Shown here piece by piece: positions 1,496 through 58,932 of a DNA stretch of 64,000 nt. The notes beneath the pieces were generated by a model. It saw nothing but the letters and a program-made list of their open reading frames with translations. It did not search any database and had not been told where the DNA came from. The position numbers and the translations under genes were made by a program. The stretch's first letter is position 1; every line of letters starts with the position of its first letter. The DNA comes from Limonium bicolor (taxonomy: Eukaryota > Streptophyta > Magnoliopsida > Caryophyllales > Plumbaginaceae): the NCBI GenBank assembly GCA_023374045.1, contig CM041777.1:462115827-462179826 (forward strand), read 5' to 3'.

Positions 1496-1680
1496 ATCAA
1501 ATTCCCTCAAGCCTTACCCCCACATCGAAATTCCTCAGGCCCGTCCTAAGCCCTATCTTCACACTCAAACATTCATAGGCCCATCATGAGCCCCACCATC
1601 TCCAGATTTGACATAAACCCTAATCCTTCTACATCCATTTAGACCCATCATACATTTTGCTCACTTTCACTTAAAACAAC

Positions 1681-2546: not shown

Positions 2547-2643
2547 GCATCATCAGCATTATCATCAACATTATCATCAGCATCATCATCAGCATTATCA
2601 TCAGCATCATCAACATCATCAGCATCATTAGCATCATTACCAT
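2547..2643. repeat. ATC/CAT trinucleotide microsatellite
   Basis: Imperfect (CAT)n/(ATC)n run interspersed with CAG and CAA triplets. It produces low-complexity open frames on both strands (poly Ile-Ser and Asp-Asp-Ala type) that are not genes. The matching run in LARD-B is at about 58968-59043 and is of a different length. Confidence 0.85.
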
Positions 2644-2878
2644 TCCAGCATTTTTGCATTTGCATGCCACCTAGCTATCATCATTATAGGTAGTCAACGC
2701 CTTAGAATCGCTTGACATCATCTCATTCGTCATAGGTAGTCAACGCCTTAGAACCGCTTGACATCATCTCATTCATTGTAGGTAGTCAGCGCCTTAGAAT
2801 AGCTCGACACAATCAGTTTTCTGATAACATGCAGGGTCTTGGAAACATTTGAAATTTTGGGGTGTCACTCAGGCAATC

Positions 2879-4669: not shown

Positions 4670-4678
4670 CCCACAGTC

Positions 4679-20897: not shown

Positions 20898-20902
20898 AAA
20901 AG

Positions 20903-20914
20903 TGGTATCAGAGC
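20903..20914 (+). other. TkN primer binding site (iMet type)
   Basis: TGGTATCAGAGC, 5 nt after the LTR end; complementary to the 3' end of initiator tRNA-Met as in many plant LTR elements. It lies within a perfect 10-bp hairpin, ATCAGAGCGA-AGTA-TCGCTCTGAT, at 20907-20930. Confidence 0.9.
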
Positions 20915-20930
20915 GAAGTATCGCTCTGAT

Positions 20931-30100: not shown

Positions 30101-31075
30101 ACAAGACCTAAATGTTGCTTGTATGTGACTTACAAATGTTGTGTGTCACTAACAAGTGCTAACCGGGGGAGTGAGGAGTCCGGTTGTTCCGGCCACGCGT
30201 GTGATGGATGGGGGTCGATATCATATCCGGTTCGGCTCCTTGGTGTATGTTAGGTGTATTCCAATTTGGTTTCACCTTCCCTTAGCTTATCCAAAGCTAG
30301 TTACTGACTCACGTCGGGCCATAGGGGCATACGTGTTGTTTGGTGTGCTCGGGATTACTATATCCGACACACCTTGGTTAAGTTAACCGTTCATAACCGG
30401 ACGGTGATGAGGTAATTAACGAGCTTGGTATGGGTGGCAAAAACCCCTAGGCTCATGGTATGTACTAACTATGGTGGAAGGTTTTGTGACCGTTTTGTGG
30501 TGTATGTATTGATATGTGATGCTATGCAATTTCCCTTGCTATGCTATGGTATATATGTATATATATGTTGGTTGTTCTAAAATGAATGCCATGCTATTAT
30601 GACAATTGGTTGCGCGTATCCCGTTAGTCGATGGGCTGCGCGTTAGCCATACCAGCAAAGGTGCTGACCCCCTCGGGGGCCCCATATTTTTTATTGCAGG
30701 ATGAGGATCGAAGAGGCTGAGTGGCTCTAGGTCCTAGGTTGTTGATATACTTTTGGATAAGTAGGTTGTTGAGCCCGGGATGCGCCTGTGCTCCCGAGGT
30801 GTTACATTTTGATACCATTGTTATACGGTGTGATATGATTATGGTTTGGAGATGTAATGTAAATTAAATACTCGGTATGGTTACTTATGTTATATATGGA
30901 TGTTAGTTACTATGCTCGGGAGTCTGATCATCAGACCGATACACTTGTATTTATTCTGCCTAGTTAACCACGTGGGTGGTTAACGGCGTTGTAACACCAA
31001 AGCGATAGTTATTATTTGGTTGGTTATTTCCGCTGCGACTTCGGTAGATGATAGGAGCGTTGTAGGGGTGTTACA
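27159..31075 (+). repeat. Tekay-AlkB LTR1
   Basis: 3917 bp, from AGAAATACCCC (TG lost) to GGTGTTACA. A TATAAATA box at 27786-27793 sits upstream of a TC-rich initiator-like stretch (ATCTTCATTCTCTC); if used, U5 plus leader is over 3 kb. A CpG-rich block of GGGTCGGTC/GACCGACCC motifs is at 29390-29735. The hairpin CCCCCTCGGGGG (30668-30679), the palindrome GTCTGATCATCAGAC (about 30931-30945) and the hairpin GTTAACCAC-GTGG-GTGGTTAAC (30963-30984) follow. Confidence 0.85.
27786..27793 (+). promoter_or_regulatory. Putative TATA box of LTR1
   Basis: TATAAATA followed about 30 bp later by a CT-rich stretch, in the usual plant promoter arrangement. The same box is at 38095-38102 in LTR2 and 48432-48439 in LTR3. 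The start site is not proven; a second candidate, ATATAAGG, lies about 95 bp upstream. Confidence 0.5.
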
Positions 31076-32893: not shown

Positions 32894-33630
32894 GAACCTT
32901 CAATATCTGCTATCCAATCCCACCCGCACCAAACCCTGAAGAAACCGCCATCAACATCACGACTTTCCATTGGAGCAATGTCAGGTTATCCAGCCAGGTA
33001 TGATACTCTTAAATGGATACCTGACACCGGAAGCACAAATCCACATCATCAGACGATGCGACGAACTTGGAGCAAAACCAGGAGGGTTCTACACACCCGA
33101 ATACCCGAACGGAGCAAGGATGCAATTGAAGATGATGTGCATGGGTAAGGACTGGAACCCTTACACCAAGTCATATCAAGAAGTACGAGCTGAAGATGGA
33201 GCAACAGTAGCAAGCATACCAGAGGAGTTCCACGCGGTCGTTAACCACGCCGTGGGAATTGCTCAGCAAGTTGAGACGGAATCAATTCCAAGTGTAAAGG
33301 CAGATTTATGCATTGTAAACTTCTACCAGAAAGGTGGACGTTTGGTATGCACCAAGACAAGGACGAGTCACCCGAGTCTCTAAGTAAGGGAGTACCCGTG
33401 GTGTCTTGGTCCATTGGTGATACCGCTGTGTTTGTGTATGGCGAGCAGAAGCGTGCTGATCTCGCAAAGAAGCTACTTCTGAAATCGGGGGATGTATTAA
33501 TCATGGGTGGGCAATCAAGGATGCTATACCATGGCATCAGAAAGATCAAACTGAATACCGCACCGTCGGCAGTGATCAATGCCACACACATGAAACCCGG
33601 ACGTTTAAATTTGACTTCAGGCAGTTTTGA
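32894..33630 (+). pseudogene. AlkB-family dioxygenase exon, copy A (frameshifted)
   Basis: 2-oxoglutarate/Fe(II)-dependent dioxygenase domain of the AlkB family, closest in wording to plant ALKBH1-type proteins as far as I can judge by eye. Readable stretches are QPGMILLNGYLTPEAQ, GGFYTPEYPNGARMQLK, VPVVSWSIGDTAVFVYG and GDVLIMGGQSRMLYHGI. Relative to copy B it lacks one base near 32960, one at about 33343 (just before the HxD motif), and has a changed and shortened 3' end, so the final Arg of the RxNxxxR motif is lost from frame. In contrast, the QLKMMCMG region near 33120 is intact here but broken in copy B. No introns interrupt the domain. AATAAA follows at 33735-33740. Confidence 0.85.
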
Positions 33631-37466: not shown

Positions 37467-40400
37467 GGAAATACCCCAAACCTTGGTATGTTGGTTAAAC
37501 ATTAAAAACATGGTATTAAGACTAAAAAGAGTCTTAGAAACCTTAGTAAACAAATTTAAACAAAAGGAAACACAAATGTGCTTTAAAGTCAATAAGAGCT
37601 AAAATGTGCTCTAAGCTTGGATAAACTTGAGTAAGGCCTAATGAGCTTACCAAGACTTCATTTATATACTAATGAACATATTAAACCAATACCAAAGAAA
37701 ACCAAGCTTGAAAACAAGTTAAAACTCAAATGTGCTTTAAGAAGTCTTAAAGCACGTTTTGAAAAATTGTCTTGTAAATGAGTTTTGAATGGCTAAATGT
37801 CCATCATTACTCTTAAATATATATGTGTACTATATAGTATCACATTTGGGTGGCTATATTAGTGGGAAATCAAAAATTTCACTTCTATGTGCCTTGTATA
37901 GGTGAATAGTACTTTTTATAAGCTATTTGTAACATATGTGGATAAGTAATTAAATGACAAACAAAGACTAAACACCCCCACACTATATAAGGGGCCGGTT
38001 TTTATAAGGTTGTGACTCACCACTCTCTTATTAATGTATTAAGTAAGTAAAGATAAGTAAATAAGCTACTTTTTACTTTATAAGTATAAATATCTCTTAA
38101 AGCAAATTCTATCTTCATTCTCTCATTTCCCTTCCTTGCTCACACGGTTTCCCACTCATCTTCTCCCTTCTTCCTTGTTCTCTCACGATAAACCACTACC
38201 ACCATTAAAACACAAGCTTTGACCACTTGCTAAATCTAGCTCACTTGTCCAAATCAAAAACAAATACCACCAATCTCTTCCTCTCATCAAGCTCTTCATT
38301 CCTATCTTCTCAAAACTCCTAGAGCTCCATTTCGGTGCCAAGGTGTTCCACCATTGAAGGAGCTTGAGCTTGGATTTCTACATATTATTACTCTCCTTTA
38401 CTTCTAGGTAAGGAATCTCAACAAAAATCAAGTTTCCTCCTTGTTTTTGTCATGTCCGAAAATACACATTGATATAGCTCATTGTGTGACTTTGTTCTAG
38501 CTTCATTTCAACTCTTCATGGACTAGGTGGAGTCCTCTCTTGTTATATATCAAACTCCCTTCAAAGATCAAGGTAAAACAACTACATTAATGTTTTTGAA
38601 ACAATGTCAAATTAGGGTTTACAATGAGATGAAGCTCAAAGCTTGAATACTCATTATGGTGTTTGTATATTGTCTAGAACTTGACAAGGAATCAAATTGT
38701 CATACGGTTTTGTAAGGAATCAAGAAGGAAGTGTTTTGGGAAAGAGGTAAATCTACTAACTTAAATGTTGTTTAATGCCTTAGGAGAAATGAGCTTATAA
38801 ATGCTTATTAAAACTACCTAAAGAGCAAATGGTGAATGACTTAGTAAAGTGTTCTCAAGAGACTAGTAAAGGGCATATGTGTGTTGAGTGTTTGCAGGTT
38901 AAAGGCATATATATTGTGGAAATTCAGTGTTTATGATTTAAGCACTTTAAGGGCCTAAGAGCCATGCATTTTAGGGCCTAAGTGCCATGCAAATTAATTG
39001 TGCACTATATTGTAATGTGGTGTAAATTTGGTGAAATTATGTATGAGAGTGTTCTTGATGATTTTAGATGTTCTTGTGTGTTTAAAGGAGAAGGTAAAGT
39101 GTTTAGGCTTAGTAATGTTCTAGGGGAACCCATGTCAAAATTTAGGTAAGAAGCAAGAAGTTTTAAGTGTTACATAAGGTTGGTGAGTTAGAAAGTGTAG
39201 GAAATGAATAAGGAGTTCATGATGTTTTAAGGAATTTTGATGAACTAGGAAGTACTCTAGATGTAATAAGGACTTAGGCATGATCTTGAGATTTAGTAGG
39301 TACCAAAGTCACTTTGGGACTTAGGTAAATACCTAGGCAAACTTTGGTAAAATAAGGAGAAGTGTACACTAGGAAAAGAGTTTCAAGAAGGAGATAAGGA
39401 ATTAGTGGTGAGAGATGATGCTTGGGAGATGATGTTAAGTTAAGGAGAAAGCATTTTGGGATAGTAGTTAATAGGTGAGAAACACCATCTAGGAAACCTA
39501 GTATGAAATAACATAAGTGTTAAGGAATTTTTACAAGGAAATAAGTAAAGGCTTAAGGAGTTAGAAAATGAGTTTCATGGATGTTGTATGTGGGTATAAA
39601 GTTACCAAATGTTGTTAGGAAGCATTAAGAGGCCTTAGGAGAAGGTTGGTGAAGAATTGGCAAAGTTTGGGTAAGGTTAGGAGGCGACCGACCCAGGGGC
39701 CGACCCAGTTTTTGGGCGGTCGAGCCTCTGTAAAATGTTAGGAAAATGTTCGGTGATGGTCCGACCCAAAAGGGTGGGTCGGACATGGGTCGGTCGGTCA
39801 AGTTTCAAAGGAAGGAAAATGTTCGCACATGGACCGACCCAGAATGGTGGGTCGGGACGTGCATGATTATAAGGAAGTAAAGGGTTCTGTAATGGACCGA
39901 CCAGAAGGTGGGTCGGACATGGGCATGTCAGGTAAGGTTCTTCAGACCCGAAAACCACTGGGAGGGTCCGACCCAGTTGTGGGTCGGACGGTGGGTCGGT
40001 CGGACCAAAACTTGTAAAAAAAAAAAACAGAAAAGAATGTGACTTATGTAGTTAACCCTAGGGTGTAATGAAGGTAACCTAGGGTAAGATAGGCATTAAA
40101 ACATGTCATACAAGCATGTTGAATACTTAGTAAGTGTGAAGTTAAATAATTAATTAACCGACCTTACTAATGTGTATAGGATTCTCTCAAGGTGGGAACG
40201 AAACAAGGCAAGGACCAAGGTATGGTTTTCTTGCAGTCTGTTGCCTAACGGTTTACACCGGCTTGGGTGTTGTTTGTTTTCTGAGTGTTTACGACCTTAT
40301 AAGATTAAGGCATGAAAAGAGTTTACAGTTGTTATATATTATGATGTTGTGTTATTATGACTCCTTTCCCTTGGTGTGTCTAACAAGACCTAAATGTTGC

Positions 40401-41372
40401 TTGTATGTGACTTAACAAATGTTGTGTGATCACTAACAAGTGCTAACCGGGGGAGTGAGGAGTCCGGTTGTTCCGGCCACGCGTGTGATGGATGGGGGTC
40501 GATATCATATCCGGTTCGGCTCTCTTGGTGTATGTATAGGTGGTATTCCAATTTGGTTTCTACCTTCCCTTAGCTTATCCAAAGCTAGTTACTGACTCAC
40601 GTCGGGCCATAGGGGCATACGTATGTTATTTCGGAGTGCTCGGGATTACTATATCCGACACACCTTTGTATAAGTAACCGTTCTATATAACCGACGGTAA
40701 CGAGGGATGGTAACGAGCTTAACATGGGGTTGGTAAAAACCCCTAGGCTCTCATGGTATACTAACTATGGTGGAAGGTCCTTGTGAGGACCAAGTTTATG
40801 GTGTTATGTATTGATGTTGTGATGCTATGCAATTTCCCTTGCTATGCTATGGTATATATGTATATATATGTTGGTTGTTCTAAAATGAATGCCATGTTAT
40901 TATGACAATTGGTTGCGCGTATCCCGTTAGTCGATGGGCTGCGCGTTAGCCATACCAGCAAAGGTGCTGACCCCTCGGGGCCCCATATTTTATTGCAGGA
41001 TGAGGATCGAAGAGGCAGAGTGGCTCTAGGTCCTAGGTGGTAGATATACTTTTGGATAAGTAGGTTGTTGAGCCCGGGATGCGCCTGTGCTCCCGAGGCG
41101 TACATGTTGATACCTTGTTATACAGTTATGGATGATTATGGTTTGGAGATGATTGTAAATTAAATACTCGGTATTGTCGGTTATGTTTATATATGGATGT
41201 TAGTTACTATGCTCGGGAGTCTGATCATCAGACCGATACACTTGTATTTATTCTGCCTAGTTAACCACGTGGGTGGTTAACGGCGTTGTAACACCAAAGC
41301 GATAGTTATTATTTGGTTGGTTATTTCCGCTGCGACTTCGGTAGATGATAGGAGCGTTGTAGGGGTGTTACA
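37467..41372 (+). repeat. Tekay-AlkB LTR2 (shared central LTR)
   Basis: 3906 bp, serving as 3' LTR for copy A and 5' LTR for copy B. It starts GGAAATACC (TG changed to GG) and ends GGTGTTACA. TATAAATA is at 38095-38102, the CpG-rich block at 39686-40008, the CCCCTCGGGG hairpin at 40971-40980 and the U5 hairpin at 41260-41281. It has more single-base deletions than LTR1 and LTR3 (for example in the CpG block, where one GGGTCGGTC unit is damaged). Confidence 0.85.
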
Positions 41373-41377
41373 AAAAG

Positions 41378-41405
41378 TGGTATCAGAGCGAAGTATCGCT
41401 CTGAT
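41378..41405 (+). other. PBS and overlapping hairpin, copy B
   Basis: TGGTATCAGAGC at 41378-41389 with the hairpin ATCAGAGCGA-AGTA-TCGCTCTGAT at 41382-41405, identical to copy A. Confidence 0.9.
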
Positions 41406-42263
41406 GACTAGAATACCGAGCTTAGGAATATACCGAGTTAGGAAACCTAACTACAGTTACCTAAGTGAGCGGACTTGGAAAGGTTAACCACTAACTAAGT
41501 GTGGAATTACCTGGTTGTCGGGAAGATGCTATAACCATTGGACCGATAAGTGTGCAAGCATAATGCTAATGAATATTCATATGAATTCAGATGTCAGGTA
41601 GACCGCGAGGTCGAGGCCGCGGACGCGGTACTGGAGATTTGGGTAACCAGGGCGATGATACTACGGCCCAGACTATGGCTGAGGCAGTTGCAGCCGCCGT
41701 AGCCCAGATGGTACCCGATCTAGTTGCTGCTATTCAGCAAGGGCAACAGCCCGGAGTTCAGCCACCACCACCACCGCCACGTGAGACCAATTGGGTCAAG
41801 GCGTTGGCTGATCTTGAGGCCGCCATCATTTCATGGGGAGACCGATCCCCGTAAGCTAGAGGCGTACATCTCCGAGTTGGAGACCGCCTACGAGACTTTG
41901 GCCGTACCTGCTGAGGCTAAGGTCCGACTTGCCGCCTACTACTTGAAGGGGTCGGCACAGAGTTGGTGGAAACTGGTGAGGGAGGACAGGATGACTGATC
42001 CTGAGTTTGGATGGAGGGAGTACACGGCTCTGCTGCGAGCCAAGTATTACCCGGTGCATGTGCAGGAGGCAAAGCGCCTCGAGCTTGACAGTCTGAAGCA
42101 GGGGGATAAGATGTCGGTTGATGAGTATACCGCATTCACCGGCCTTATCCACCTGTTACCAGACCTTGGGTATTCGAACCGGGTGTTGGTGAACCGGTTC
42201 TACAATGGACTGAGCCACCGTCTCCGCTATGGGATGGGGCCAGCTGAGTATACCACCTTGCAG

Positions 42264-42364
42264 GTAATTAGAGTACCTTGTGTGAATCAAATTATACCTG
42301 AGTGAATGTTAATGTGAGTTGGTGAGTTTGTTTTGCGGGGCATGACTGACATCCTAAAATTCAG
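42264..42364 (+). other. Predicted gag intron 1, copy B
   Basis: 101 nt, CAG|GTAATT ... AATTCAG|GAG, matching copy A intron 1 with small differences that do not affect the splice sites or the TGACTGAC branch-like motif. Confidence 0.65.
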
Positions 42365-42618
42365 GAGTGCTATCATGCCGCTGCAAAGGTTGAAATACCG
42401 TCCGTCTGAGGGACGAGGAAAATGCGCACAAGCGCAAGGCCACCAACGAGGGCCAAAATCAGCAAGGGTATGGGGGGGGAAGAGAAGAAACCCTACCCTC
42501 AGCCCCAGAAGGGGCAGTACCAGGGTGACAACACCAGCCCAGCCACCACCACCTGATGAGCCACTGAAGCTCACGTACGCGTATGCGGCGAAGCCTCTAC
42601 GCTCCTACCCGCCTAAGG

Positions 42619-42697
42619 GTAATTACTTAACCATGTGTATCTAGTTGAGGTGTATGTTGTGTGAGGTGGGAAGTGAGTATGATTGTGTTTGTTATAG
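42619..42697 (+). other. Predicted gag intron 2, copy B
   Basis: 79 nt, AAGG|GTAATT ... TTATAG|CAG, phase 1, equivalent to the copy A intron. Confidence 0.65.
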
Positions 42698-43183
42698 CAG
42701 CTAGCGCGGGTTCTGAACCGGAGCGCCACTTTTACTGTAAGTGGTGCAATGGAGATCACCCCGGCAAAGACTGCAAGGGGAATAATGTGAGGTGCCGCCA
42801 CTGCCAGAAGATGGGGCACCGTGAGTTTGAGTGTTGGACGAACCCCAACGGCAGAAACTACAAGCCAAAGGGGCAGTGGAAGGGTAACACTACCACGACC
42901 ACTGAAGGCCCGAAGGCGATTACTCAGCAGACTTCTGACAGGAAGTACACTGAATCCCAGAAGGGGAAGGCTACGGGGTCCGGCAAGGCCACCTGAATGT
43001 GGTGGACCGGTCTGAGGCACCAGGATCCTCTTCGAGACCAGGTACCGCCTAAACTGATAAATGAAAAAGTGATTGCTTACCGCATTTCATGCATGAGTGT
43101 TAGCAAGTCTAAGGGTATAAACATATAAGTAAGAGTTAGAACATAATGTGGAAAACACCTAAATTAGGCAATTTGAAACTTAG

Positions 43184-43921
43184 GAACCTTCAATATCTGC
43201 TATCCAATCCCACCCGCACCAAACCCTGAAGAAACCGCCATCAGCATCAACGACTTTCCATTGGAGCAATGTCAGGTTATCCAGCCAGGTATGATACTCT
43301 TAAATGGATACCTGACACCGGAAGCACAAATCCACATCATTAGACGATGCGACGAACTTGGAGCAAAACCAGGAGGGTTCTACACACCCGAATACCCGAA
43401 CGGAGCAAGGATGCAATTGAGAGATGTGCATGGGTAAGGACTGGAACCCTTACACCAAGTCATATCAAGAAGTACGAGCTGAAGATGGAGCAACAGTAGC
43501 AAGCATACCAGAGGAGTTCCACGCGGTCGTTAACCACGCCGTGGGAATTGCTCAGCAAGTTGAAGCGGATTCAATTCCAAGTGTAAAAGCAGATTTATGC
43601 ATTGTAAACTTCTACCAGAAAGGTGGACGTTTGGGTATGCACCAAGACAAGGACGAGTCACCCGAGTCTCTAAGTAAGGGAGTACCCGTGGTGTCTTGGT
43701 CCATTGGTGATACCGCTGTGTTTGTATATGGCGAGCAGAAGCGTGCTGATCTCGCAAAGAAGCTACTTCTGAAATCGGGGGATGTATTAATCATGGGTGG
43801 GCAATCAAGGATGCTATACCATGGCATCAGAAAGATCAAACTGAATACCGCACCGTCGGCAGTGATCAATGCCACACACATGAAACCCGGACGTTTAAAT
43901 TTGACTTTTAGGCAGTTTTGA
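43184..43921 (+). CDS. AlkB-family 2OG-Fe(II) dioxygenase exon, copy B (one frameshift)
   Basis: Terminal exon of about 245 codons encoding an AlkB dioxygenase domain. AlkB enzymes use Fe(II), O2 and 2-oxoglutarate to remove methyl groups from nucleic-acid bases. Visible catalytic residues: HxD as HQD at 43640-43648 in GMHQDKDES; the distal His at 43820-43822 in MLYHGI; and the 2-oxoglutarate-binding RxNxxxR as RLNLTFRQF at 43892-43918, ending in a native TGA. The N-terminal half (PGMILLNGYLTPEAQ, GGFYTPEYPNGA) is nearly all readable. A 2-nt loss near 43421 puts the part before LRDVHG-like residues out of frame with the downstream frame starting at 43424. From 43424 to the stop (165 codons) it is open. 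No introns interrupt it, so capture of a host mRNA copy is likely. Upstream frame is continuous with the gag splice acceptor. Confidence 0.88.
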
Positions 43922-44026
43922 GCCTTGTGTAATCATGTATTGTATTAAGCCAGTGGTTTGACAAAGGAGCTATGTCTAGCCATGTCCACAATGTAACCAA
44001 TTTATGGTGTAAAGACTGTGTTAATG

Positions 44027-44032
44027 AATAAA
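44027..44032 (+). terminator. Putative polyadenylation signal after AlkB
   Basis: AATAAA 106 nt after the AlkB stop and before the pol splice acceptor (44098). Copy A has it at 33735-33740. If used, it would end a Gag-AlkB mRNA before pol. A single hexamer is weak evidence in plants. Confidence 0.4.
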
Positions 44033-44098
44033 GAAATGTTGTTTTGGAGTGTATCAACGTGTTGTTACCCAATACTTATTAGTTTGCCAATGAATTAG

Positions 44099-47000
44099 GC
44101 TGTGCACTCGGAACGGGAGGTATACTGAGTGTCTGCAATAAGGCAGAAGCCGGCAAGAGCGGCACGATCCTCACCGGTACCTTTCCAGTGAATGGCGTGG
44201 ATGCATCGATCTTGTTCGACTCTGGAGCCTCACACACTTTCATTTCGCTATCATTTGCGAAGAGGCTGGGGTTAGACGGTGAAGAGATGCCAGACTTCGT
44301 GGTCACTCTCCCGTCGAAAGAGCAGATCAGATGTACCCGCTACTACCGAGATGCTGTTGTTCGAATCATGGATGAGGAGTTTCCGATCGACTTGATAGAG
44401 TTCGACGGACTGGGTTTTGATGTGATTGTCGGGATGAACTGGTTGGAGCGGTACAAGGGTAGAATCCTATGTGCCGAGCATCGACTGCTTCTTAGGAGTC
44501 CATCTGGGGTTACTATATCATACCGCCAGAGGCCCAGGGAGCCTTCGACACAGATCATCACCGCCATGGCCATGTATCGAGAGTTACGACGGGGAAATGA
44601 TGTATACCTCTGCTATGTCCAGGACATAGAGAGAGATCCAGAGTTTAGCACAGATGTGCCGGTAGTCTCGGAGTTTCCTGATGTATTTCCTAAGGAACTG
44701 CCGGGCATGCCGCCACCACGAGAGGTTGAATTTGAGATCGACTTGGTTCCGGGCACCGGACCAATTGCGAAAGCACCTTACCGTATGGCTCCAGCAGAGA
44801 TGACAGAGCTCAAGGAGCAGCTGCGAGACCTACTCGACAAGGGCTTCATTCGCCCTAGTGTGTCACCATGGGGAGCGCCGGTCCTCTTCGTGAAGAAGAA
44901 GGACGGTAGCCTCCGCCTATGTATTGATTATCGGGAGCTGAATGCTGTTACGGTGAAGAACCGTTACCCCTTACCACGCATCGACGATCTATTTGATCAG
45001 CTTAGGGGAGCATCAGTATTCTCCAAGATAGACCTACGTTCCGGATATCACCAGATTGCTATCCGTGACAGTGACATCGAAAAGACAGCTTTCAGAACTA
45101 GGTATGGGCACTATGAGTTCACCGTTATGCCGTTTGGCTTATCAAATGCACCAGCAAAGTTCATGGACTTAATGAACCGTTTGTTCCAAGATCAGTTGGA
45201 CAAATCAGTGGTAGTCTTCATCGATGACATACTTGTGTATTCGAAATCGAGAGGTGAGCATGAAAGCCACCTGAGAGATGTATTGCAGACGTTGAGAAAG
45301 AATCAGCTGTATGCTAAATTTTCTAAATGTGAATTTTGGTTGAACCAAGTATCATTCCTTGGACATGTAATTTCTGAGGCCGGGATCGCTGTTGATCCGG
45401 CGAAGATAGATGCAGTGCGCACCTGGCCTAGGCCGAAGACAGTTACCGACATCAGGAGCTTCCTCGGTCTGGCAGGTTACTATAGGAGATTTGTGAGGGA
45501 CTTCTCCAGTGTCTCGAAGCCGATGACTTCCTTGATGAAGAAGGATGCACCATTCGAGTGGACAGTCGACTGCGAGAGAGCTTTCACGAGTCTCAAGGAT
45601 GCTCTGACATCTGCACCGGTTCTGACATTACCAGACGGTCCAGATGGTTTTGAGGTCTATTGCGACGCATCAGGCAGGGGTATGGGTTGTGTGTTGATGC
45701 AACACGGGAAGGTCGTGGCTTACGCCTCCCGACAGCTGAAGAAGCATGAGGAGAACTACCCTACCCACGACTTAGAATTGGGGGCCATTGTCTTCGCACT
45801 GAAGATATGGCGACATCACTTGTATGGGGTAAGTGTGACGATCTATTCTGACCACAAGAGCTTGAAATACTTGTTCACTCAGAAAGAGTTGAACATGAGG
45901 CAGAGAAGGTGGGTTGAATTCTTGAATGATTATGACATCGATTTACAGTATAAGGAGGGTAAGGCAAACGTGGTAGCTGACGCATTGAGTCGCCGAGCAC
46001 ACTCTCTCCATTCGCTAGTCTCTCATACTGGCTTGGTTGAAGAGGTGCGGAGTGCTCAAATGACGGATCAGTATATGGTGGGAATTAGACAGAAGCTTAT
46101 TGATGGCACATTCGAGGGTCAGAAGTATGACTTCAGACTCCACGATGATGACCTGATTAGGCTCAATGGCCGGTTGTGTATACCGAGGAGTAGCGCTGAG
46201 CTGAAGGAGCGCATACTGAGTGAATCCCATTGTTCTACTACTTCGATTCACCCCGGAGCTTCAAAGATGTATAAAGGTATGAAAAGATACTTCTGGTGGG
46301 CTGGAATGAAAAAGGACGTAAATGACTATGTGTTAAGGTGTCTCACTTGTCAGAAGGTCAAGTTTGAGCACCGACGGCCTGGTGGTATGGTGCAGCCAAT
46401 GCCAGTGCCGGAGTGGAAGTTCCATGACATATCTATGGACTTCGTGGTAGGGCTTCCGCCTACAAGGGGAGGTCTAAATATGATTTGGGTGGTAGTTGAC
46501 CGACTGACCAAGGTGTCTCGATTCATTCCGATGAAGGACACCTGGAAAGTGGCAAAATTGGCAGAATTATTCGATAAAGAGATTGTTAGACATCATGGTG
46601 TACCAAAGACGATAGTATCTGACAGAGATACCAGATTCTTATCCAGATATTGGAAGTCTACACGAGAGGCACTTGGTACTGAACTGAAATTGAGCACGGC
46701 GTTTCACCCACAGACCGATGGTCAGAGTGAGCGCACTATACAGACACTTGAGGATATGCTACGTGCGTGTGCACTTGATTTTCAGACCAGCTGGATTGAT
46801 AAGTTACATCTGATCGAGTTTAGCTACAACAACAGTTATCATGCATCGATCAAGATGTCTCCCTTCCAGGCATTGTACGGTAGACCATGCCGCACGCCAT
46901 TATGCTGGGATGAGTCGAGTGAGACGGTCATTATAGGACCAGAGTATCTTGAGCAAGTTCAGGCAGAAGTTCGCCAGATCAGGGCTAATATGAGGGCAGC

Positions 47001-47478
47001 TCAGGATAGACAGAAGTCGTACGCAGATGTGCGCCGACGCGACCTGGAGTTCGCCGTGGGCGATCAGGTATTTTTGAGAGTATCCCCCATGAAGGGAGTA
47101 TTTCGTTTTGGTCAGAAGGGCAAGCTGAGCCCGAAGTATGTAGGTCCTTATGTTGTGACGGAGCGGATCGGCCCGGTAGCTTATAGACTTGATTTACCCG
47201 CCGAGCTGGGCAAGGTACATGATGTATTTCATGTGTCCCAGTTGAAGAAGTATATGTCTCATCCGTCTCATGTGCTTCAGCCTGAAAGGCTAACCTTAGA
47301 GCCGACCATGCGATCAGTGGAGACTCCGGTACGGATTCTGGATACTAAGACTCGAGACACTCGCCATAAGTCCGTGAGACTGGTGAAGGTCCTCTGGTCT
47401 AACCAGGACGTTGAGGAGGCCACTTGGGAGCTGGAAGAAAAGATGAAGGCGAAGCACCCGTCATTGTTTGCTTCTTAG
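44099..47478 (+). CDS. pol: Tekay chromovirus pol: protease-RT-RNase H-integrase-chromodomain, copy B
   Basis: Uninterrupted frame of 1096 codons from 44188 (GTG, not a real start) to TAG at 47478; the open frame extends upstream to the predicted splice acceptor at 44099, adding about 30 residues. Domains, numbered from 44188: aspartic protease DSGAS 11-15; reverse transcriptase about 190-390 with CIDYREL 245-251, MPFGL 314-318 and active-site FIDD 344-347; RNase H with YCDAS 491-495, SDH 554-556 and ADALS 597-601; integrase zinc finger with His 681/688 and CLTC 718-721; catalytic core Asp751, Asp812 (SDRDTRF) and Glu848 ([10 protein letters not shown]); and a C-terminal chromodomain about 1045-1090 (LVKVLW, EEATWE). 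Length and order fit Tekay/Del elements, whose chromodomain is thought to guide integration to heterochromatin. This looks coding-competent; gag upstream is not. Confidence 0.95.
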
Positions 47479-47802: not shown

Positions 47803-50800
47803 TGAAATACCCCAAACCTTGGTATGTTGGTTAAACATTAGAACATGATCTATTAAGACTAAAAAGAGTCTTAGAAACCTTAGTAAACAAATTTAAACAA
47901 AAGGAAACACAAATGTGCTTTAAAGTCAATAAGAGCTAAAATGTGCTCTAAGCTTGGGATAAACTTGAGTAAGGCCTAATGAGCTTACCAAGACTTCATT
48001 TATATACTAATGAACATATTAAACCAATTACCAAAGAAAACCAAGCTTGAAAACAAGTTAAAACTCAAAATGTGCTTTAAGAAGTCTTAAAGCACGTTTT
48101 TGAAAAATTGTCTTGTAAATGAGTTTTGAATGGCTAGATGTCCATCATTACTCTTAAATATATATGTGTACTATATAGTATCACATTTGGGTGGCTATAT
48201 TAGTGGGAAATCAAAAATTTCACTTCTATGTGCCTTGTATGGGTGAATAGTACTTTTTATAAGCTATTTTGTAACATATGTGGTATAAGTAATTAAATTG
48301 ACAAACAAAGACTAAAACACCCCCACACTAATATAAGGGGCCGGTTTTTATAAGGTTGTGACTCACCACTCTCTTATTAATGTATTAAGTAAGTAAAGAT
48401 AAGTAAATAAGCTACCTTTTTACTTTATAAGTATAAATATCTCTTAAAGCAAATTCTATCTTCATTCTCTCATTTCCCTTCCTTGCTCACACGGTTTCCC
48501 ACTCATCTTCTCCCTTCTTCCTTGTTCTCTCACGATAAACCACTACCACCATTAAAACACAAGCTTTGACCACTTGCTAAATCTAGCTCACTTGTCCAAA
48601 TCAAAAACAAATACCACCAATCTTCCTCTCATCAAGCTCTTCATTCCTATCTTCTCAAAACTCCTAGAGCTCCATTTCGGTGCCAAGGTGTTCCACCATT
48701 GAAGGAGCTTGAGCTTGGATTTCTACATATTATTACTCTCCTTTACTTCTAGGTAAGGAATCTCAAACAAAAATCAAGTTTCCTCCTTGTTTTTGTCATG
48801 TCCGAAAATACACATTGATATAGCTCATTGTGTGACTTTGTTCTAGCTTCATTTCAACTCTTCATGGACTAGGTGGAGTCCTCTCTTGTTATATATTCAA
48901 ACTCCCTTCAAAGATCAAGGTAAAACAACTACATTAATGTTTTGAAACTATGTCAAATTAGGGTTTACAATGAGATGAAGCTCAAAGCTTGAATACTCAT
49001 TATGGTGTTTATATATTGTCTAGAACTTGACAAGGAATCAAATTGTCATACGGTTTTGTAAGGAATCAAGAAGGAAGTGTTTTGAGAAAAGAGGTAAATC
49101 TACTAACTTAAATGTTGTTTAATGCCTTAGGAGAAATGAGCTTATAAATGCTTATTAAAACTACCTAAAGAGCAAATGGTGAATGACTTAGTAAAGTGTT
49201 TAAGAGACTAGTAAAGGGCATATGTGTATGTTGAGTGTATTTGCAGGTTAAAGGCACATATATTGTGGAAATTCAGTGTTTATGATTTAAGCACTTTAAG
49301 GGCCTAAGAGCCATGCATTTTAAGGGCCTAAGTGCCATGCAATTTATATTGTGCACTATATTGTAATGTGGTGTAAATTTGGTGAAATTGTGTATGAGAG
49401 TGTTCTTGGTGATTTTAGATGTTCTTGTGTGTTTAAAGGAGAAGGTAAAGTGTTTAGGCTTAGTAATGTTCTAGGGGAATCCATGTCAAAATTTAGGTAG
49501 GAAGTAAGAAGTTCTAAGTGTTTACATAAGGTTTGGTGAGTTAGAAAGTGTAGGAGATGAATAAGAAGTTTATGATGTTCTTAAGGAATTTTGATGAACT
49601 AGGAAACATTCTATAGCATAATAAGGACTTAGGCATGATCTTGAGATTTAAGTAGGTACCAAAGTCACTTTGGGACTTAGGTAAATACCTAGGCAAACTT
49701 TGGTAAAATAAGGAGAAGTGTACACTAGGAAAAGAGTTTCAAGAGGGAGATAAGGAATTAGTGGTGAGAGATGATGCTTGGGAGATGATGTTAAGTTAAG
49801 GAGAAAGCATTTTGGGATAGTGGTTACCATAGGTGAGAAACACCATCTAGGAAACCTAGTATGAAATAACATAAGTGTTAAGGAATTCTTACAAGGAAAT
49901 AAGTAAAGGTTTAAGGAGTTAGAAAATGAGTTTCATGGATGTTGTATGTGGATATAAAGTTACCAAATGTTGTTAGGAAGCATTAAGAGGCCTTAGGAGA
50001 AGTTTGGTGAAGAATTGGAAAATTTGGGTAAGTTTAGAAGACGACCGACCCAGGGGCCGACCCAGTTTTTGGGTCGGTCGAGCCTCTGTAAAATGTTAGG
50101 AAAATGTTCGGTGATGGTCCGACCCAAAAGGGTGGGTCGGACATGGGTCGGTCGGGCAAGTTTCAAAGGAAGGAAATGTTCGCACATGGACCGACCCAGA
50201 ATGGTGGGTCGGACGTGGGTCGGACGGGCATAATTATAAGGAAGTAAAAGGGTTCTGTAATGGACCGACCCAGAAGGTTGGGTCGGACATGGGTCGGTCC
50301 AGATAAGGTTCTTCAGACCCGAAAACCACTGGGAGGGTCCGACCCAGTTGTGGGTCGGACGGTGGGTCGGTCGGACCAAAACATGTAAAAAAAAAAAACA
50401 GAAAAGAATGTGACTTATTTAGTTAACCCTAGGGTGTTTAATGAAGGTAACCTAGGGTAGGATAGGCATTAAAACATGTCATACAAGCATGTTGAATACA
50501 TAGTAAGTGTGAAGTTAAATAATTAATTAACCGACCTTACTAATGTGTATAGGATTCTCTCAAGGTGGGAACGAAACAAGGCAAGGACCAAGGTATGGTT
50601 TTCTTGCAGTCTGTTGCCTAACGGTTTACACCGGCTTGGGTGTTGTTTGTTTTCTGAGTGTTTACGACCTTATAAGATTAAGGCATGAAAAGAGTTTACA
50701 GTTATTATATATTATGATGTTGTGTTATTATGACTCTTTTCCCTTGGGTGTCTAACAAGACCTAAATGTTGCTTGTATGTGACTTAACAAAATGTTGTGT

Positions 50801-51755
50801 GATCACTAACAAGTGCTAACCGGGGGAGTGAGGAGTCCGGTTGTTCCGGCCACGCGTGTGATGGATGGGGGTCGATATCATATCCGGTTCGACTCTCTTG
50901 GTGTATGTATAGGTAGTATTCCAATTTGGTTTCTACCTTCCCTTAGCTTATCCAAAGCTAATTACTGACTCACGTCGGGCCATAGGGGCGTACGTTATTT
51001 CGGAGTGCTCGGGATTACTATATCCGACACGCCTTTGGTATAAGTTAACCGTCCTATATAACCGGACGGTAACGAGGATGGTAACGAGCTTAACATGGGG
51101 CTGGTAAAACCCCTAGGCCTATGCTCTCAGGGTAACTAACTATGGTGGAAGGTTCCTTGTGAGGACCAAGTTTATGGTGTTGTGTATTGATGTTGTGATG
51201 CTATGCAATTTCCCTTGCTATGCTATGGTATATAGTATATATATGTTGGTTGTTCTAAAATGAATGCCATGTTATTATGACAATTGGTTGCGCGTATCCC
51301 GTTAGTCGATGGGCTGCGCGTTAGCCATACCAGCAAAGGTGCTGACCCCCTCGGGGGCCCCATATTTTATTTGATTGCAGGATGAGGATCGAAGAGGCTG
51401 AGTGGCTCTAGGTCCTAGGCGGTAGATATACTTTTGGATAAGTAGGTTGCTGAGCCCGGGATGCGCCTGTGCTCCCGAGGCATACATGTTGATACCCTGT
51501 TATACAGTTATGGATGATTATGGTTTGGAGATGATTGTAAATTAAATACTCGGTATTGTCGGTTATGTTTATATATGGATGTTAGTTACTATGCTCGGGA
51601 GTCTGATCGTCAGACCGATACACATGTATTTATTCTGCCTAGTTAACCACGTGGGTGGTTAACGGCGTTGTAACACCCAAGCGTTTAGTTATTGTTTGGT
51701 TGGTTATTTCCGCTGCGACTTCGGTAGATGATAGGAGCGTTGTAGGGGTGTTACA
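47803..51755 (+). repeat. Tekay-AlkB LTR3
   Basis: 3953 bp, TGAAATACCCC to GGTGTTACA; the only one of the three LTRs with intact TG..CA ends. TATAAATA is at 48432-48439, the CpG-rich block at 50040-50382, the CCCCCTCGGGGG hairpin at 51346-51357 and the U5 hairpin at 51642-51663. It is followed by CCGGGTCCC, which does not match the left flank of the array. Confidence 0.88.
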
Positions 51756-52260
51756 CCGGGTCCCATATTCCGGCCCACACTCTATGACCGGGTCCCATAT
51801 TCCGGCCCCGTGCCTCATGACCGGATCCCACATCCCACACTTTGGGGCCAGAAGGCTTTACAAGGAGAGAAGTCCAAAATTAGGAGGGCTGCTCTAATAA
51901 AGTAATACCACATATACAAGGACTAAGAGATAGACTTCACCCTCGAAAGTCTATAAATAGAGATGAGGGGTTCATTTGTAAGGACACACATTACTAGAAG
52001 AGAGAGAGAGAGCACTAGAAAGCTCTCTAGGGTTGTAATACTAAAGAAAGGAATAAAGATATTGTCAAGAAGTGGATATAGGCCGGATTATTGGCCGAGC
52101 CACTATAATTCTCTGTGTTCTATTCATTTGAGAGATTTGAGGGATGAGTTATACGTTTTCAATGGGATCTACCTAAATCCCAAATAATTTAAGAATTATT
52201 GTTTATTGAACCAGCACAGTTCTCGGCCGCCGGCTAGGGTTGCTTTTGACCTGACAAAAA
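51756..52260 (+). repeat. Fragment of an unidentified LTR
   Basis: Begins with two and a half copies of a TGACCGGGTCCCATATTCCGG-like unit. Then TATAAATAG (51951), a GAGAGAGAG run, AATAAAG and CTCTGTGTTCTATTC follow, an arrangement like the promoter and R region of a plant LTR. Neither end has been fixed: the left end abuts LTR3 and the right end merges into TkN-like LTR sequence at about 52260. The ORFs here are short and without motifs. Confidence 0.45.
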
Positions 52261-52938
52261 TAAACATTGAGATAAGATACAACCATTTCTATTTAAAGAA
52301 CGGTTTGTATTCTAAGACTGAGATAAGGACTAAGATTGAGGTAAGGTAAGAATGGACTGAGATTAAGAGGAATAATAACTTAAGGAGTTAATTGATTAAC
52401 TCACTAATTAAGGGAACACTTTTAAGTCGTTCATTGTGTTTGAACATTGAGTGTTCATATGTGGCTTGTTGTTTATTGCACTTTCTATTATGTTGTGCTT
52501 CTAATCAACATCCATGCTATCGAAAATTAGTCATCGTAGCCACGTTAGCTTGGGGGCCATGAGAGGATCGTACTAGCAATTTTGCTGACCCCCTTTGGGG
52601 GCTGTTTTTATTTCGTAGGTGAATGCCAGAAGGCGATAGTCCGGAGAGTAGGATCGGGTAGAATTTACTTCGGGTTGTCTTCTTTTAGTTGTACGAGTTT
52701 TGCCTGTACACTCGATTAGTGGTTGGTATGAGATGTAGTAAGTTGTGTAAGATGTAATGGGATATGAAGAATTTGTACTGAAGATATGTAATGGTTAAGA
52801 TTTAGCACACTAATGTTCGGTATATACTGTTAGTCAGACCGTGGCAAGGTGCTGGAGTGTATTTAATTCCGCTGCAACGTTTGTATATATGTTGTTAAGT
52901 TTGTGATAAAAACGATTGGATTGAGATGAGGTGTAACA
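52260..52938 (+). repeat. TkN-like LTR, 3' part (element TkN2)
   Basis: Recognised by landmarks shared with TkN: the hairpin CCCCC-TTT-GGGGG at 52589-52601 preceded by GCTGA, TCAGACCG near the end, and an ACA terminus followed by the iMet-type PBS. Overall it is diverged from both TkN and Tekay-AlkB LTRs. It lacks the G-box-like GTTAAC hairpin. Confidence 0.65.
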
Positions 52939-52943
52939 AAAAG

Positions 52944-52970
52944 TGGTATCAGAGCGTAGTTACGCTCTGA
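52944..52970 (+). other. PBS and hairpin of TkN2
   Basis: TGGTATCAGAGC (52944-52955) within a stem TCAGAGCGTA/TACGCTCTGA with loop GT (52949-52970). Compared with TkN and Tekay-AlkB, both sides of the stem changed together, so pairing is kept. Confidence 0.85.
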
Positions 52971-53613
52971 AGACATGTAATTACCAAACTTAGGAGAATA
53001 CTGAGGTTGAGTTTGAGTTATGGGTTAAGGGTTGAGAGATAGAGTGAGAAATGCGTTAGTTAGGACTTCCAAGTGTCTACCGGATATCCATAGTACCTAA
53101 ACCCGCCCTCCACATCCCTTGCTTGAAGTACGGGGAACAAACACCAGAGAGAAGAAAGCCTTCTCTTACTCGGGGAAACCCGATCTAGTAGTTAGTTAAC
53201 AGTAAGCAATACGAGAAACATCTTGTTGTACAACAGTTTACAAAAACTTGGAGGTTTTAATTGGAGCGCAATGTGAAAATAGGCGCACCAACAGAATTCT
53301 ACCAGTAAGAGAACGGTAATTACCGGCAACATGGGTCGACATGCTACGCAGTCGAGATACACCGTAATACCAATGATAAGAAAAGCACTACGAGTGCAAT
53401 GGATAGGAAAAGATAAGCGACATGAGTACCGGACAGTAGTCCGAAGGAGCATAACAGTGGGATAATACATAGCATGAGAGTTAAGATTACTAGAAAGTCC
53501 AGTTAGAAACGGGAACTCCGAACCCCATACAATGAGAAAGGTTACGAACCTGGTCGACATAGCATAGACGACGATAAAAACGTGTACAAATTGGATATTA
53601 GAATAGCGCTACG
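52971..53613 (+). other. TkN2 internal leader, truncated by Athila-2
   Basis: Non-coding. Homologous to TkN 20945-21560: it shares CTACCGGATA, TCTTACTCGGGGAAA/CCCGATCT, CGACATGCTACGCAGTCG and AAAGGTTACGAACCTGG. Cut at 53613 where the Athila-2 LTR begins. Confidence 0.65.
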
Positions 53614-55271: not shown

Positions 55272-56799
55272 AACTTCCTCACACTTGACTTTTGCTTGTC
55301 CTCAAGCGAATAAGGAATATAATTATCTCTAAGCCAAAATAATAAAACAAGATTAAACAAGTGTAGAAGGGAATTTAGACAAAGTGACAATTGAAAGAAT
55401 AATTCTGCTCCTAGAAGTAGGTTTTTATAAATAGTGAAGAAGAACAATTTAATAAAAGCACAGATAAACTAGACTGCAGAAAACAAGTTAGATTAACCTG
55501 GGATCTTCAACCAATTTCAATTCTCTAACCCGGGATGACAAGGGGTGTGAAGTAATGCCTTATTCCGCAATACCTTTCAACACCACGTACTCATGTTTAT
55601 AAACATAAATAGCAATTTATTATTTACATCTTTTTTTTTTGAATGTGCAAATTGTATATACAAAGCACATATTATTTATATATATATATATATATATATT
55701 TTTAATTTGCATTATTTTTCTGTACCCCAGACTTTTCTCTCTATCCTTGTAGCGGTGTTGGGTCTTCTATCCCAGGTCACGAGACCTTAGGTAGATAGGT
55801 GTTAAAGCACCCCAAAGAACTTAATAACCGGATAGACGAGGCCTGTTATTGGTTAGAAAAATTCATAAACAGTGGAGTACCTTGTCTTTTTCCTTTTCTT
55901 TCCTTGACTTTCCACATATTTCCATAATCCCAAGCTAAACTAAATTGGTTTTTACAACTAGCAGATCTATCATATTTTGAGTGGAAATAGAGTATTTTGA
56001 AGGAAAATAATTTTATACAAACTTCTTAAAATAAAACTATCTTCAGTTGTCACCCTGACAATTTCAGACACTTCTACAATTATTTTATCTCATTTTTATC
56101 AATTGTTTTTATTTAGGCAGTTTAGAGTAGCAAAAAGTGAGTGTGGCATTATCGAACTACTGTCATAATTTCAGGGAAAGGTCTCTCCTAACTTCCTCAC
56201 ACTTAAGAGGAGCAATGTCCTCATTGTTCAGAATTAAATTCAAGAAAAGGACCTTTCAAAATATGACAGACTCATAAAGGATTAAACTCATATAGGTTGA
56301 ACATTAATATAATAAAGGAAGAACTGAAACTCCCCTTGTATCATAGATTGAGGAAGGTATCCTTCCTCACACTTAAAGCTTTAGTAGGGGTGAGACGTTC
56401 CTCACACTTAAGTTCGCGCAAGTGTTCAACCGCAGATATCGAAATTCCTAGAGCAACTGAGGTTGCTTCCTTAGGCGAGTTCAGCTATATGTTGGATATA
56501 GAATTTATTCTGAAAAGAAAATCATATATAGCCAGCAGAACTCAAATGGCATCAAAAGAAAATATTAAAAGGCAAACCATAATTAATAATGCATTGCATA
56601 AAAACAAAACATAAAGTAAACTGAACTGTTACCTTCCTGTATGTAACAAAAGTTTGATATGGTTAAAACAGTATTAGTCTACAAAATGTTAGTAACAACA
56701 GAGAATATAAAATAAAAATAAAAATACAAATCACTGTGGTGGTGGTGGTGGAGGCTGTGAAGGCTGTGCTGGTCCCTGGCCTATCTGAGCGAGGAGATG
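55272..56799 (-). mobile_element. Athila-2 3' internal region
   Basis: Non-coding 3' end of an Athila-type internal region, cut at 56799 by LARD-B. The polypurine-like motif TAAGTGTGAGGAAG on the minus strand recurs at about 56191, 56361 and 56398 as well as at the LTR border. A (AT)n run occupies about 55676-55700. The 56297-56614 open frame on the plus strand has no recognisable domain and runs antisense to the element. Confidence 0.7.
56731..56799 (-). pseudogene. C-terminal tail of an Athila-2 ORF
   Basis: Reading leftward from the LARD-B junction gives a 22-residue tail, HLLAQIGQGPAQPSQ followed by a Pro run and Gln, then TGA at 56731-56733. Composition fits the end of a retroelement polyprotein or 3' ORF, but it is too short to assign. 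The upstream part is displaced by LARD-B. Confidence 0.4.
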
Positions 56800-58586
56800 T
56801 GTGAGCCTCGATTTTAAACCATATCCTATGTTAATTAAATTGATTGGGATCTAGTCGGGTTTTAGGTCCACTTAACCTAAGATTAATAACTATGTCATAA
56901 AAACAATTTTAAAACCTAAGCTAGCTCACTGGAACCTATTATGAGTCGCCACCTAATTTTGACCTAGATTAAATTAGGAAAGGAGAGTTCGGGTTCGGGG
57001 GCTTGATATTCGACTTATTTAGGGTTCAATTACTTTCATTACCCTTCCTAGGTCGTTTTTCCTCTACTTGGTTTATTTACGCTTATTACGAGTCGTTTTA
57101 ACCAAAGTGCGCGAGCTTCTGTTTTTTTGTGTTTTTTAGCATTTTTTGATAGAAAATTAAAGTAAAATTAAAGATTCCTAAACTAGGGTTTCAGAGGCAG
57201 AATTAGGTCAAATTTTGTTTCCGTCTGTAGCCACGGACCTAATGTCCGAAACCACGGACCCTAGTTAACCTATATAAAAATAAAAGTCGAATTAAACAGA
57301 AAACAGAAAATTTTAAAGTCCGGGGCCACGGACAGGCTGTCTGTGGGCCCGGACATTATTAAAAAAAACCTAATTTTTAAATTTTAAAAAATCCCGCCGC
57401 CGTCCATGGGTGTCCGAGCTTACGGACAGGGAGTCCGGGACCCCGGACACGACGTCCGTGGGTGCGGACAGCCCTCGGACGGCGGCTTTGAGGCTGTTCC
57501 CGAAGGTGTTTTTGGCTCAAATTTTATGGGTGTGTAGCCTGAAAGATGTACAATGCGTTAGTGATCGAAAGCTCTCAATTTGAATTCGAATTATGCACGA
57601 AACTTGGTAAACAATTTATTGGACAGAAGCTTGAATAAACAGCAATACAGAAGCGTACGAAGGTTAGTTTGAGCCCAAATTTTGAGGCAAGACAGACAAT
57701 ACCGTGGAGAATTAGGGAAGTGGAGTTTCTACCTGTTTTACCTTCGGATTCACAACATTTCTTCACACCGGGATTCGTCGAGTGCTCCGTTGATGGCAGA
57801 CCCGAGAGGATTTCGACCCACGCTTCTGGTTGTTGGTTGTTCTTGCTGTTCTTCATGTTTTGGAGGTGTTTTTGTGGGGTTTTGATGATTATTGGTGCTT
57901 TGGGAATCGGAAAACGTGTTTAGATGGTGATTTCGGGGGATTTTTGGTATGATTTGGGTGGCCGGGTGTTGGAAAACGTGAGAGAGAGAGAGGAGGCTGT
58001 GTTTTCTGACTCTCTAGGGTTCTTGAGCATATGAAGTTCTGATTTTATCCAAAAACCTATCCCCTTATATAGACTTTCTTAAAGATAAAGAAAATCTAGT
58101 AAAAGTAAGATTTTTCGATATTTTAGTTAAGTGACTTCCCAAAGGAATTTTGCTGTGAAATTTTAACCACGTGTCAAGGATGGAAATTATGAATTTTCTG
58201 AAGTGGAATCGGATTTTTTAAATGTTGGAATATTTTTAAATTGAATTTCCCGTCAGATTCAGTCAGAAATTGCTACAAAATTATTGGAAACTCGAAAAAT
58301 CAAAATTCCAACGCCATTATGCTTGGAATGTCATCCTCTATAATGGGTTAAAATATCAAAGCATTTCAAGCTGATTTGGGCATCCTTTGGAGGAGAGAGA
58401 AAGCTTATAGGAGGTCTCAGGAGCCTTTAAAGATTACCGAAACGCCCCTGAAAATGACGAAGTTGCTCCCAATGCCATGGAACGCGCCGATCGTGCCGGA
58501 ATCCCTCACCATTTGATTAAAATGCCTCTCACAACACCAGCACCCCGTAGACCCTAACCCAGGGGGTCAAAATTTTGGGTATAACA
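56800..58586 (-). repeat. LARD-B 3' LTR
   Basis: 1787 bp; minus-strand start TGTTATACCC (58586), end GGCTCACA (56800). Nearly identical to 63128-64000 where they overlap, and the inverse of 2879-4669. A GTCCG/CGGAC block is at 57225-57485. A TATATAAGG box lies at about 58063-58071 on the minus strand. Confidence 0.88.
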
Positions 58587-58739
58587 GATTGCCCCCCGTC
58601 AACTAGACTTTGTAGCGGATGTGAAAAGTCTGGTTGATGCTTGAGTGATGCCCCCAAAATTTTGGACCTCACGAAATTCTCCATGTTGTGTGAAACCGCG
58701 GTGATTGTGTGCAGCTATTCGGAGGCGCTGACTACCTAA

Positions 58740-58932
58740 GCAACAAAAACGTTGTCGAGCTATTCTAAGGTGCTGACTACCTATAAGCGAAAATGTGTCA
58801 AGCTCTTCTAAGGCGTTGACAACCTAAAATGTGGAAATGAGATAATGTCAAGCGATTCTAAGGCGTTGACAACCTAAAATGTGAAAATGAGATAATGTCA
58901 AGCGATTCTAAGGCGTTGACAACCTAAAATGT
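58740..58932. repeat. Short minisatellite in LARD-B
   Basis: Repeats of about 45-50 bp around GTCAAGCGATTCTAAGGCGTTGAC, four to five units, the last two nearly identical. LARD-A has fewer units at about 2690-2815 in inverse orientation. Confidence 0.75.

Follow-up and report, generated by a model that had tools for sequence, protein, structure and literature searches.

A Tekay-type retrotransposon family of Limonium bicolor with an ALKBH1-like exon between gag and pol and predicted in-frame splicing of this exon to gag

Long terminal repeat (LTR) retrotransposons that carry an AlkB-family demethylase have been described in orchids, where Ty3/gypsy elements of Phalaenopsis, among them Gypsy_Pa_2799, contain a 2-oxoglutarate-dependent dioxygenase (2-ODD)/AlkB open reading frame (ORF) and the element enzyme demethylates N6-methyladenosine (m6A) in RNA in vitro (PMC9289625). 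These elements group with Ogre in the Tat family, carry an ALKBH5-type AlkB in a separate ORF2, encode gag-pol as one ORF and have a reference element of 25.5 kb; among 121 angiosperm genomes screened in that study, only two Phalaenopsis species had the domain (PMC9289625). Here, we analyzed 64,000 nucleotides of Limonium bicolor (GCA_023374045.1, contig CM041777.1, positions 462,115,827 to 462,179,826 of the forward strand; the window herein), which contain two copies of a retrotransposon with an AlkB exon. Like the orchid elements, the Limonium element is an LTR retrotransposon that is abundant in its plant genome and whose AlkB-family domain retains the cofactor residues. Unlike them, it appears to be of Tekay type, its ALKBH1-type exon lies between gag and pol, and this exon has a predicted splice to gag.

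Membership of the orchid AlkB-Gypsy (Tat/Ogre) lineage was rejected, as the AlkB is ALKBH1-like, sits between gag and pol and is found at another locus (L081) in a Gag-fused frame, features that set it apart by the orchid descriptions. Judged by its sequence, the window element appears to be a separate AlkB capture, with another lineage, another AlkB family and a Gag-fused design. Open-licence PMC literature on AlkB-carrying retrotransposons yielded the orchid lineage (ALKBH5-type) alone; what is new here is the element lineage, the AlkB family, the gag-pol position, the apparent spliced Gag fusion and the occurrence in two or more deeply diverged subfamilies. According to the initial annotation of this DNA, standard Tekay/Del elements encode nothing beyond Gag and Pol, a statement that overlooked the orchid precedent (PMC9289625). 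Three further systems bear comparison. The Ogre elements of pea and Medicago likewise have a retrotransposon intron that is spliced, permitting polyprotein translation, but that intron lies between gag-protease and reverse transcriptase (PMC6317226), whereas the introns of the Limonium element lie in gag and before AlkB. Plant RNA viruses resemble it as mobile genetic agents with an AlkB domain (PMC544882; PMC9289625), but theirs forms part of replicases and is distant in sequence, whereas the AlkBs of the element are placed next to plant ALKBH1. Plant ALKBH1 itself, for example OsALKBH1 (PDB 5xeg, 5xoi), has the same fold, the HxD..H and RxNxTFR motifs and ∼49 to 60% identity over the catalytic part; the element AlkBs differ in forming a separate clade and in having Gag, by predicted splicing, in place of the host N-terminal region.

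The reading we favor, at a probability of roughly 0.55, is that AlkB belongs, as a resident gene under selection, to a deeply diverged lineage of Tekay-type elements and is spliced in frame to gag, and that the predicted Gag-AlkB protein is likely packaged and would demethylate the element's own RNA. In copy 2, the exon (43184-43921; all features are on the + strand unless stated) follows a splice acceptor (AG, 43182-43183), ends with a TGA stop and contains one frameshift, and in copy 1 (32894-33630) the AlkB part contains three. Pfam 2OG-FeII_Oxy_2 matched at 43424-43918 with E 1.4e-39, and the longer frame of a relative (L003) gave E 6.7e-48, which bears out the initial assignment to a 2-oxoglutarate/Fe(II) dioxygenase. 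Also as first described, HQD, the distal His and RLNLTFRQF are all present, and in both window copies the domain occupies the identical site, with the zinc-knuckle exon upstream and the protease downstream; tblastn found no AlkB elsewhere in the window. HxD, the distal H and RxNxTFR were invariant or nearly so across 30 aligned rows. The solved structure nearest to the window AlkB is 5xeg, titled OsALKBH1. For the related protein P0243, the AlphaFold model has a mean pLDDT of 88 and the predicted fold is sound; its top fold match is rice OsALKBH1 (51% identity), with ALKBH5 at 16 to 17% identity. Weak fold matches also included viral replicases.

We searched the 2.92 Gb genome for further copies. 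The AlkB open frame as DNA query gave 40 places scored at 98 to 100% and the carrot ALKBH1 protein gave 150 scored places (52-58% identity, most without stops), these being the best of 3,445 and 47,087 candidates, respectively, which are counts from a loose first look and not copy numbers. A further protein search contributed 136 scored places. The 40 close places are distributed over C1-C8 plus small contigs. We fetched 28 of them (L002-L029, with L002 being window copy 2; subfamily 1) and 12 of the 150 diverged places (L030-L041; subfamily 2). Loci L042-L044 and L076-L078 stand outside the analysis, and L073-L075 entered the intron check only. The domain extends well beyond this locus: the order gag-AlkB-pol was found in 28/28 close and 12/12 diverged copies. 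The AlkB and pol acceptor strings were present in all 28 close relatives, and the gag donor string was exact in 25. Subfamily 2 is ∼61 to 65% identical to the window in AlkB, ∼32 to 47% in pieces of the capsid and ∼47 to 58% in the longest piece at the protease start.

These genome copies demonstrate that AlkB was mobilized as part of the element. Outer ends were fetched for ten close copies, one of which was again tandem and one of which had no readable 3′ end; exact 5-bp target duplications flank five of the eight testable copies (TTACA, CCTAT, CCGGA, TAGAG, and ATATT) and three have none. One subfamily-2 copy has LTRs of 5.1 kb that are 97.7% alike and the target duplication CTATG. The initial annotation had reached the same conclusion from the two window copies, and while the conclusion stands, that argument does not, since the pair has an LTR in common; independent mobilization proven by the window pair was thus rejected. 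As another route by which the earlier view could have failed, the domain might sit in an unrelated insertion with its own duplication. We did find AGGTA flanking the insert, yet diverged subfamilies both have the insert and the duplications lie at the outer LTR ends.

Evidence for selection comes from the same copies. The exon is open from the FDIC motif to its end in 16 of the 28 close loci and in nine of the 12 subfamily-2 loci. Taken over intact copies only (leaving out 12/28 and 3/12), in a sample of best matches biased toward window-like or host-like copies and over pairs that are not independent, the pooled uncorrected nonsynonymous/synonymous ratio was 0.153 for subfamily 1 (120 pairs, mean synonymous divergence, Ks, 0.035) and 0.179 for subfamily 2 (36 pairs, mean Ks 0.355, nonsynonymous divergence, Ka, 0.052). 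Between subfamilies, synonymous sites are saturated and AlkB amino acid identity is 55 to 59%. The spaced Fe/2-oxoglutarate-binding motif pattern was kept in 25/25 intact copies. These observations support AlkB as a resident element gene under purifying selection; a lack of such selection among copies would, by the initial annotation, have refuted its view. If AlkB were instead a passenger, a captured host fragment without function, one could point to the frameshifts in both window copies, to the relatively greater nonsynonymous change in AlkB than in pol between them, and to the 12/28 and 3/12 fetched copies that lack a full open exon. A passenger would hardly account for ratios of 0.15 to 0.18 within subfamilies, for the cofactor pattern in every intact copy or for frames open in both subfamilies despite saturated synonymous sites; we consider it very improbable and, on the low ratios and the open frames, rejected it.

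For the phylogeny, we removed two proteins with double domains, P0241 and P0242, along with six identical rows; the first tree used 82 of the remaining 125 rows (66 host rows). The 63-row tree contained 39 host rows, 8/10 bacterial rows, and 4/16 subfamily-1 and 7/9 subfamily-2 intact copies, with no ALKBH5 rows. Its 16 element-type AlkBs, eleven from genome loci and five (P0001-P0004 and P0243) known as proteins only, formed one clade (95/90, with the bootstrap not fully settled) beside the 39 rows of plant ALKBH1 (94/78), and bacterial AlkB fell outside both, in agreement with the ALKBH1-like identity first proposed. P0243 (AlkB) and P0122 (pol) are listed on contigs of identical size, 26,561, and are therefore very likely on one contig. 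Subfamily-2 AlkBs are nearer P0243 (66-72% versus 57-58%), and the first 200 pol residues are likewise nearer P0122 in subfamily 2 (64-70% in 12 loci versus 46-58% in the eight subfamily-1 loci shown). Since the AlkB and pol relationships agree, both seem to descend together from a single capture. Among the scored carrot/legume ALKBH1 matches, the best of ∼47,000 candidates, no host ALKBH1 gene was distinguishable from element copies, which may hide one. Scans of viral contigs with P0001, the window AlkB and pol returned one remote virus AlkB only (L001, 35% identity).

We take the element to be Tekay (Del) from hallmarks of its pol. The pol region (44120-47478; listed ORF from 44188) is open in copy 2 and encodes protease, reverse transcriptase, RNase H, integrase, and a weak candidate chromodomain after integrase (Pfam Chromo E 2.9e-4, 21.1 bits, below the curated cut-off of 25.1). 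Its nearest polyprotein relatives are spread over many seed plants. A chromodomain was listed for 2/120 among the pol matches listed, and none was reported for P0122 at E 0.001. The primer binding site TGGTATCAGAGC (41378-41389), presumably of the tRNA-Met type, and the 5-bp target duplications fit Tekay, and both features are common to other lineages too.

The gag region is predicted to comprise three exons. Exon A (41591-42263) encodes the capsid (Pfam Retrotrans_gag E 1.8e-16) and is interrupted in both copies, exon B (42365-42618) is open in copy 1, and exon C (42698-43041), delimited from frames and sequence, contains the zinc knuckle. They are separated by intron 1 (42264-42364, 101 nt, phase 0), for which intron-less copies exist in the genome, and intron 2 (42619-42697, 79 nt, phase 1), which is exactly absent in L025 and L079-L082. 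A third intron (43042-43183, 142 nt, phase 1) lies between gag and AlkB. The donor 43041|43042 is in phase both with the AlkB acceptor 43183|43184 and with the acceptor 44119|44120 before pol. Searching the genome for the predicted in-frame Gag|AlkB junction gave ten places (1-3 mismatches), and the reversed-pattern control gave none. In the four places that were read (L079-L082), introns 2 and 3 are gone and part of intron 1 is kept, and L081 has one open frame of 417 amino acids that extends from gag exon B across the zinc knuckle as far as the AlkB end and is followed by the stretch resembling a 3′ untranslated region (UTR) and pol. These four loci form a third subfamily, with DNA identity to the window of ∼78 to 83% in the gag exons, 88% in AlkB and 90% in pol. 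The splice signals recur in aligned subfamily-2 copies (G|GTAAG donor 9/9, AlkB acceptor 9/9, pol acceptor 8/9), and in the fully read L032 all splice sites are in frame and gag codes through the intron-1 site.

Intron-lacking copies made up 3/28 of the fetched close relatives (L015 and L016 for intron 1 and L025 for intron 2). L016 has a clean 101-nt gap and the gap of L015 aligned as a shifted 86 nt. Genome-wide, 286 places per strand have the junction without intron 1 (≤2 mismatches; reversed control 0), and part of these may reflect an older state and not spliced copies. As an observation in its own right, the multi-intron gag at 41591-43041, with intron 1 present or absent among copies, offers a case of intron gain or loss within one retrotransposon family.

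In the mechanism we propose, splicing would join the AlkB exon in frame to gag and yield a Gag-AlkB protein, the Gag part would bring the demethylase to the particle and to the RNA inside, and methyl groups would be stripped from element RNA, releasing it from methylation-dependent host restraint. Through the second acceptor, upstream of pol, the one donor could yield Gag-Pol instead, a predicted splice for which the genome gave no trace. We infer that the fusion is made, packaged via Gag and active, with element RNA (m6A or m1A type) as main substrate. The initial annotation had likewise suggested that the domain may clear methyl marks from the element's RNA, cDNA or primer. An RNA target is suggested by analogy only, with the orchid ALKBH5-type enzyme. 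For plant elements, m6A on LTR-element RNA is described as leading to sequestration in stress granules and ALKBH9B as releasing ONSEN RNA in a review (PMC12786077).

Several points weigh against this proposal. Both window AlkB frames are broken. Among the junction-bearing loci, L082 has a frameshifted Gag-AlkB and the AlkB match in L079 and L080 is confined to the first 48 bases. All ten Gag|AlkB places carry one common sequence variant and therefore may stem from few events. Genome-wide, no place was found for the subfamily-1 Gag-to-Pol (or empty-site) junction in two spellings or for the subfamily-2 Gag|AlkB junction, zeros that are weak because the count of unspliced junctions wanted as a control is absent. 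The internal poly(A) signal could hinder full-length element RNA. Lastly, relatives of ALKBH1 have several substrates, among them DNA, so the case for an RNA target is one of analogy.

AlkB might instead act on DNA, stripping 6-methyladenine (6mA) or alkylation damage from element cDNA or integrated copies, in line with the name that plant ALKBH1 bears in databases. The nearest fold, OsALKBH1, speaks for this, as do the many plant relatives whose source records call them DNA N(6)-methyladenine demethylase, but a Gag fusion suggests that the protein meets RNA first, and we regard a DNA substrate as unlikely. ALKBH1 acts on tRNA m1A, and the element enzyme could work in trans on host RNAs to the element's advantage, whether tRNAs, including the tRNA-Met primer, or defence mRNAs. 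Cellular RNAs were raised as possible targets in the orchid paper (PMC9289625); the Gag-fused form, on the other hand, would hold the enzyme close to element RNA, and we think action on host RNAs somewhat less probable still. Demethylation of the element's own RNA by a packaged Gag-AlkB is the reading we retain. In its boldest form, which we put forward tentatively and at somewhat less than even odds, part of Gag has become a packaged nucleic-acid demethylase: spliced Gag-AlkB would enter the particle and erase host methyl marks on genomic RNA. Such a counter-defence would have persisted while synonymous sites became saturated, and it would underlie the element's expansion to hundreds or thousands of copies. 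If true, then together with the orchid Ogre case, unrelated retrotransposons would have captured different AlkB enzymes for one war. With a second AlkB-retrotransposon case, one can test whether hosts really restrain transposons through adenine methylation of their RNA and whether elements evade this, and an abundant family with many open AlkB exons and natural, apparently spliced copies makes fusion and substrate directly examinable.

How the exon was acquired can be read in part from the insert, which contains an acceptor, an exon from an FDIC-like motif to a stop, and a 3′ UTR-like tail (43922-44119) with AATAAA at 44027-44032. It is flanked by a 5-bp direct repeat, AGGTA, at 43040-43044 and 44118-44122, the right copy holding the predicted in-frame Pol acceptor. 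Because splicing demands AG|GT at the left end, this repeat does no more than hint at a target duplication of the insert. The empty-site junction search (two spellings, 0 places) found no spliced or empty site and no sister copy lacking AlkB. The initial annotation had proposed capture of an ALKBH1-like host mRNA; the ALKBH1-like domain is upheld, but we found no poly(A) remnant in the insert and an intron with its acceptor precedes the exon. These features would be better explained if a terminal exon had been captured together with some intron sequence than if the source had been a finished mRNA.

The two window copies belong to one array, LTR-internal-LTR-internal-LTR (27159-51755), defined by self-BLAST and LTR comparison. 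LTR 1 spans 27159-31075, with its start TGAAATACC fixed from genome copies, LTR 2, common to both copies, spans 37467-41372 and LTR 3 spans 47803-51755. The LTRs are 97.4 to 98.1% identical and the internal regions 98.6%, and no matching target duplication was seen at the array's outer ends. The copies are therefore not two clean insertions and, being in tandem with a common LTR and with both AlkB frames broken, by themselves give no proof of mobilization. The common middle LTR and the missing outer duplication would also suit a single dead insertion duplicated in tandem, uninformative on the family. Set against this are the many separate genome copies and the differences between the two copies, 23 synonymous to 6 nonsynonymous in pol (P 1.5e-9) and 5 to 3 in AlkB (P 0.028), from which it follows that most divergence predates the death of the copies, in a lineage then under selection. 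LTR 2 also shifts its likeness: its first 2.8 kb has 23 sites in common with LTR 1 and 9 with LTR 3, and beyond 2.8 kb it has 57 in common with LTR 3 and 21 with LTR 1, the pattern expected from a crossover between two elements. The 28 and 13 sites private to LTR 2 in these respective parts indicate that the history was not simple. We find a dead tandem duplication scarcely credible and rejected it on the 23:6 excess in pol. Some window frameshifts could be assembly errors because 27 of the 36 gaps between the two internal regions are single bases.

Tandem arrays with LTRs in common seem frequent genome-wide, as at L047/L048 and in pairs of places ∼10 kb apart (e.g. C1:20345163 and C1:20355392). 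Elsewhere in the window, 20884-20969 and 52911-53193 contain other Tekay-type LTR ends followed by a primer site of the same type, and directly after the array a short repeat of ∼33 bases (51756-51830) lies perhaps within the LTR of another element. Open frames at 4742-6781 on the − strand resemble what we take to be Athila-type gag. Finally, 1-4670 and 56799-61132 form a long inverted duplication of 87 to 93% identity with minisatellite-like arrays.
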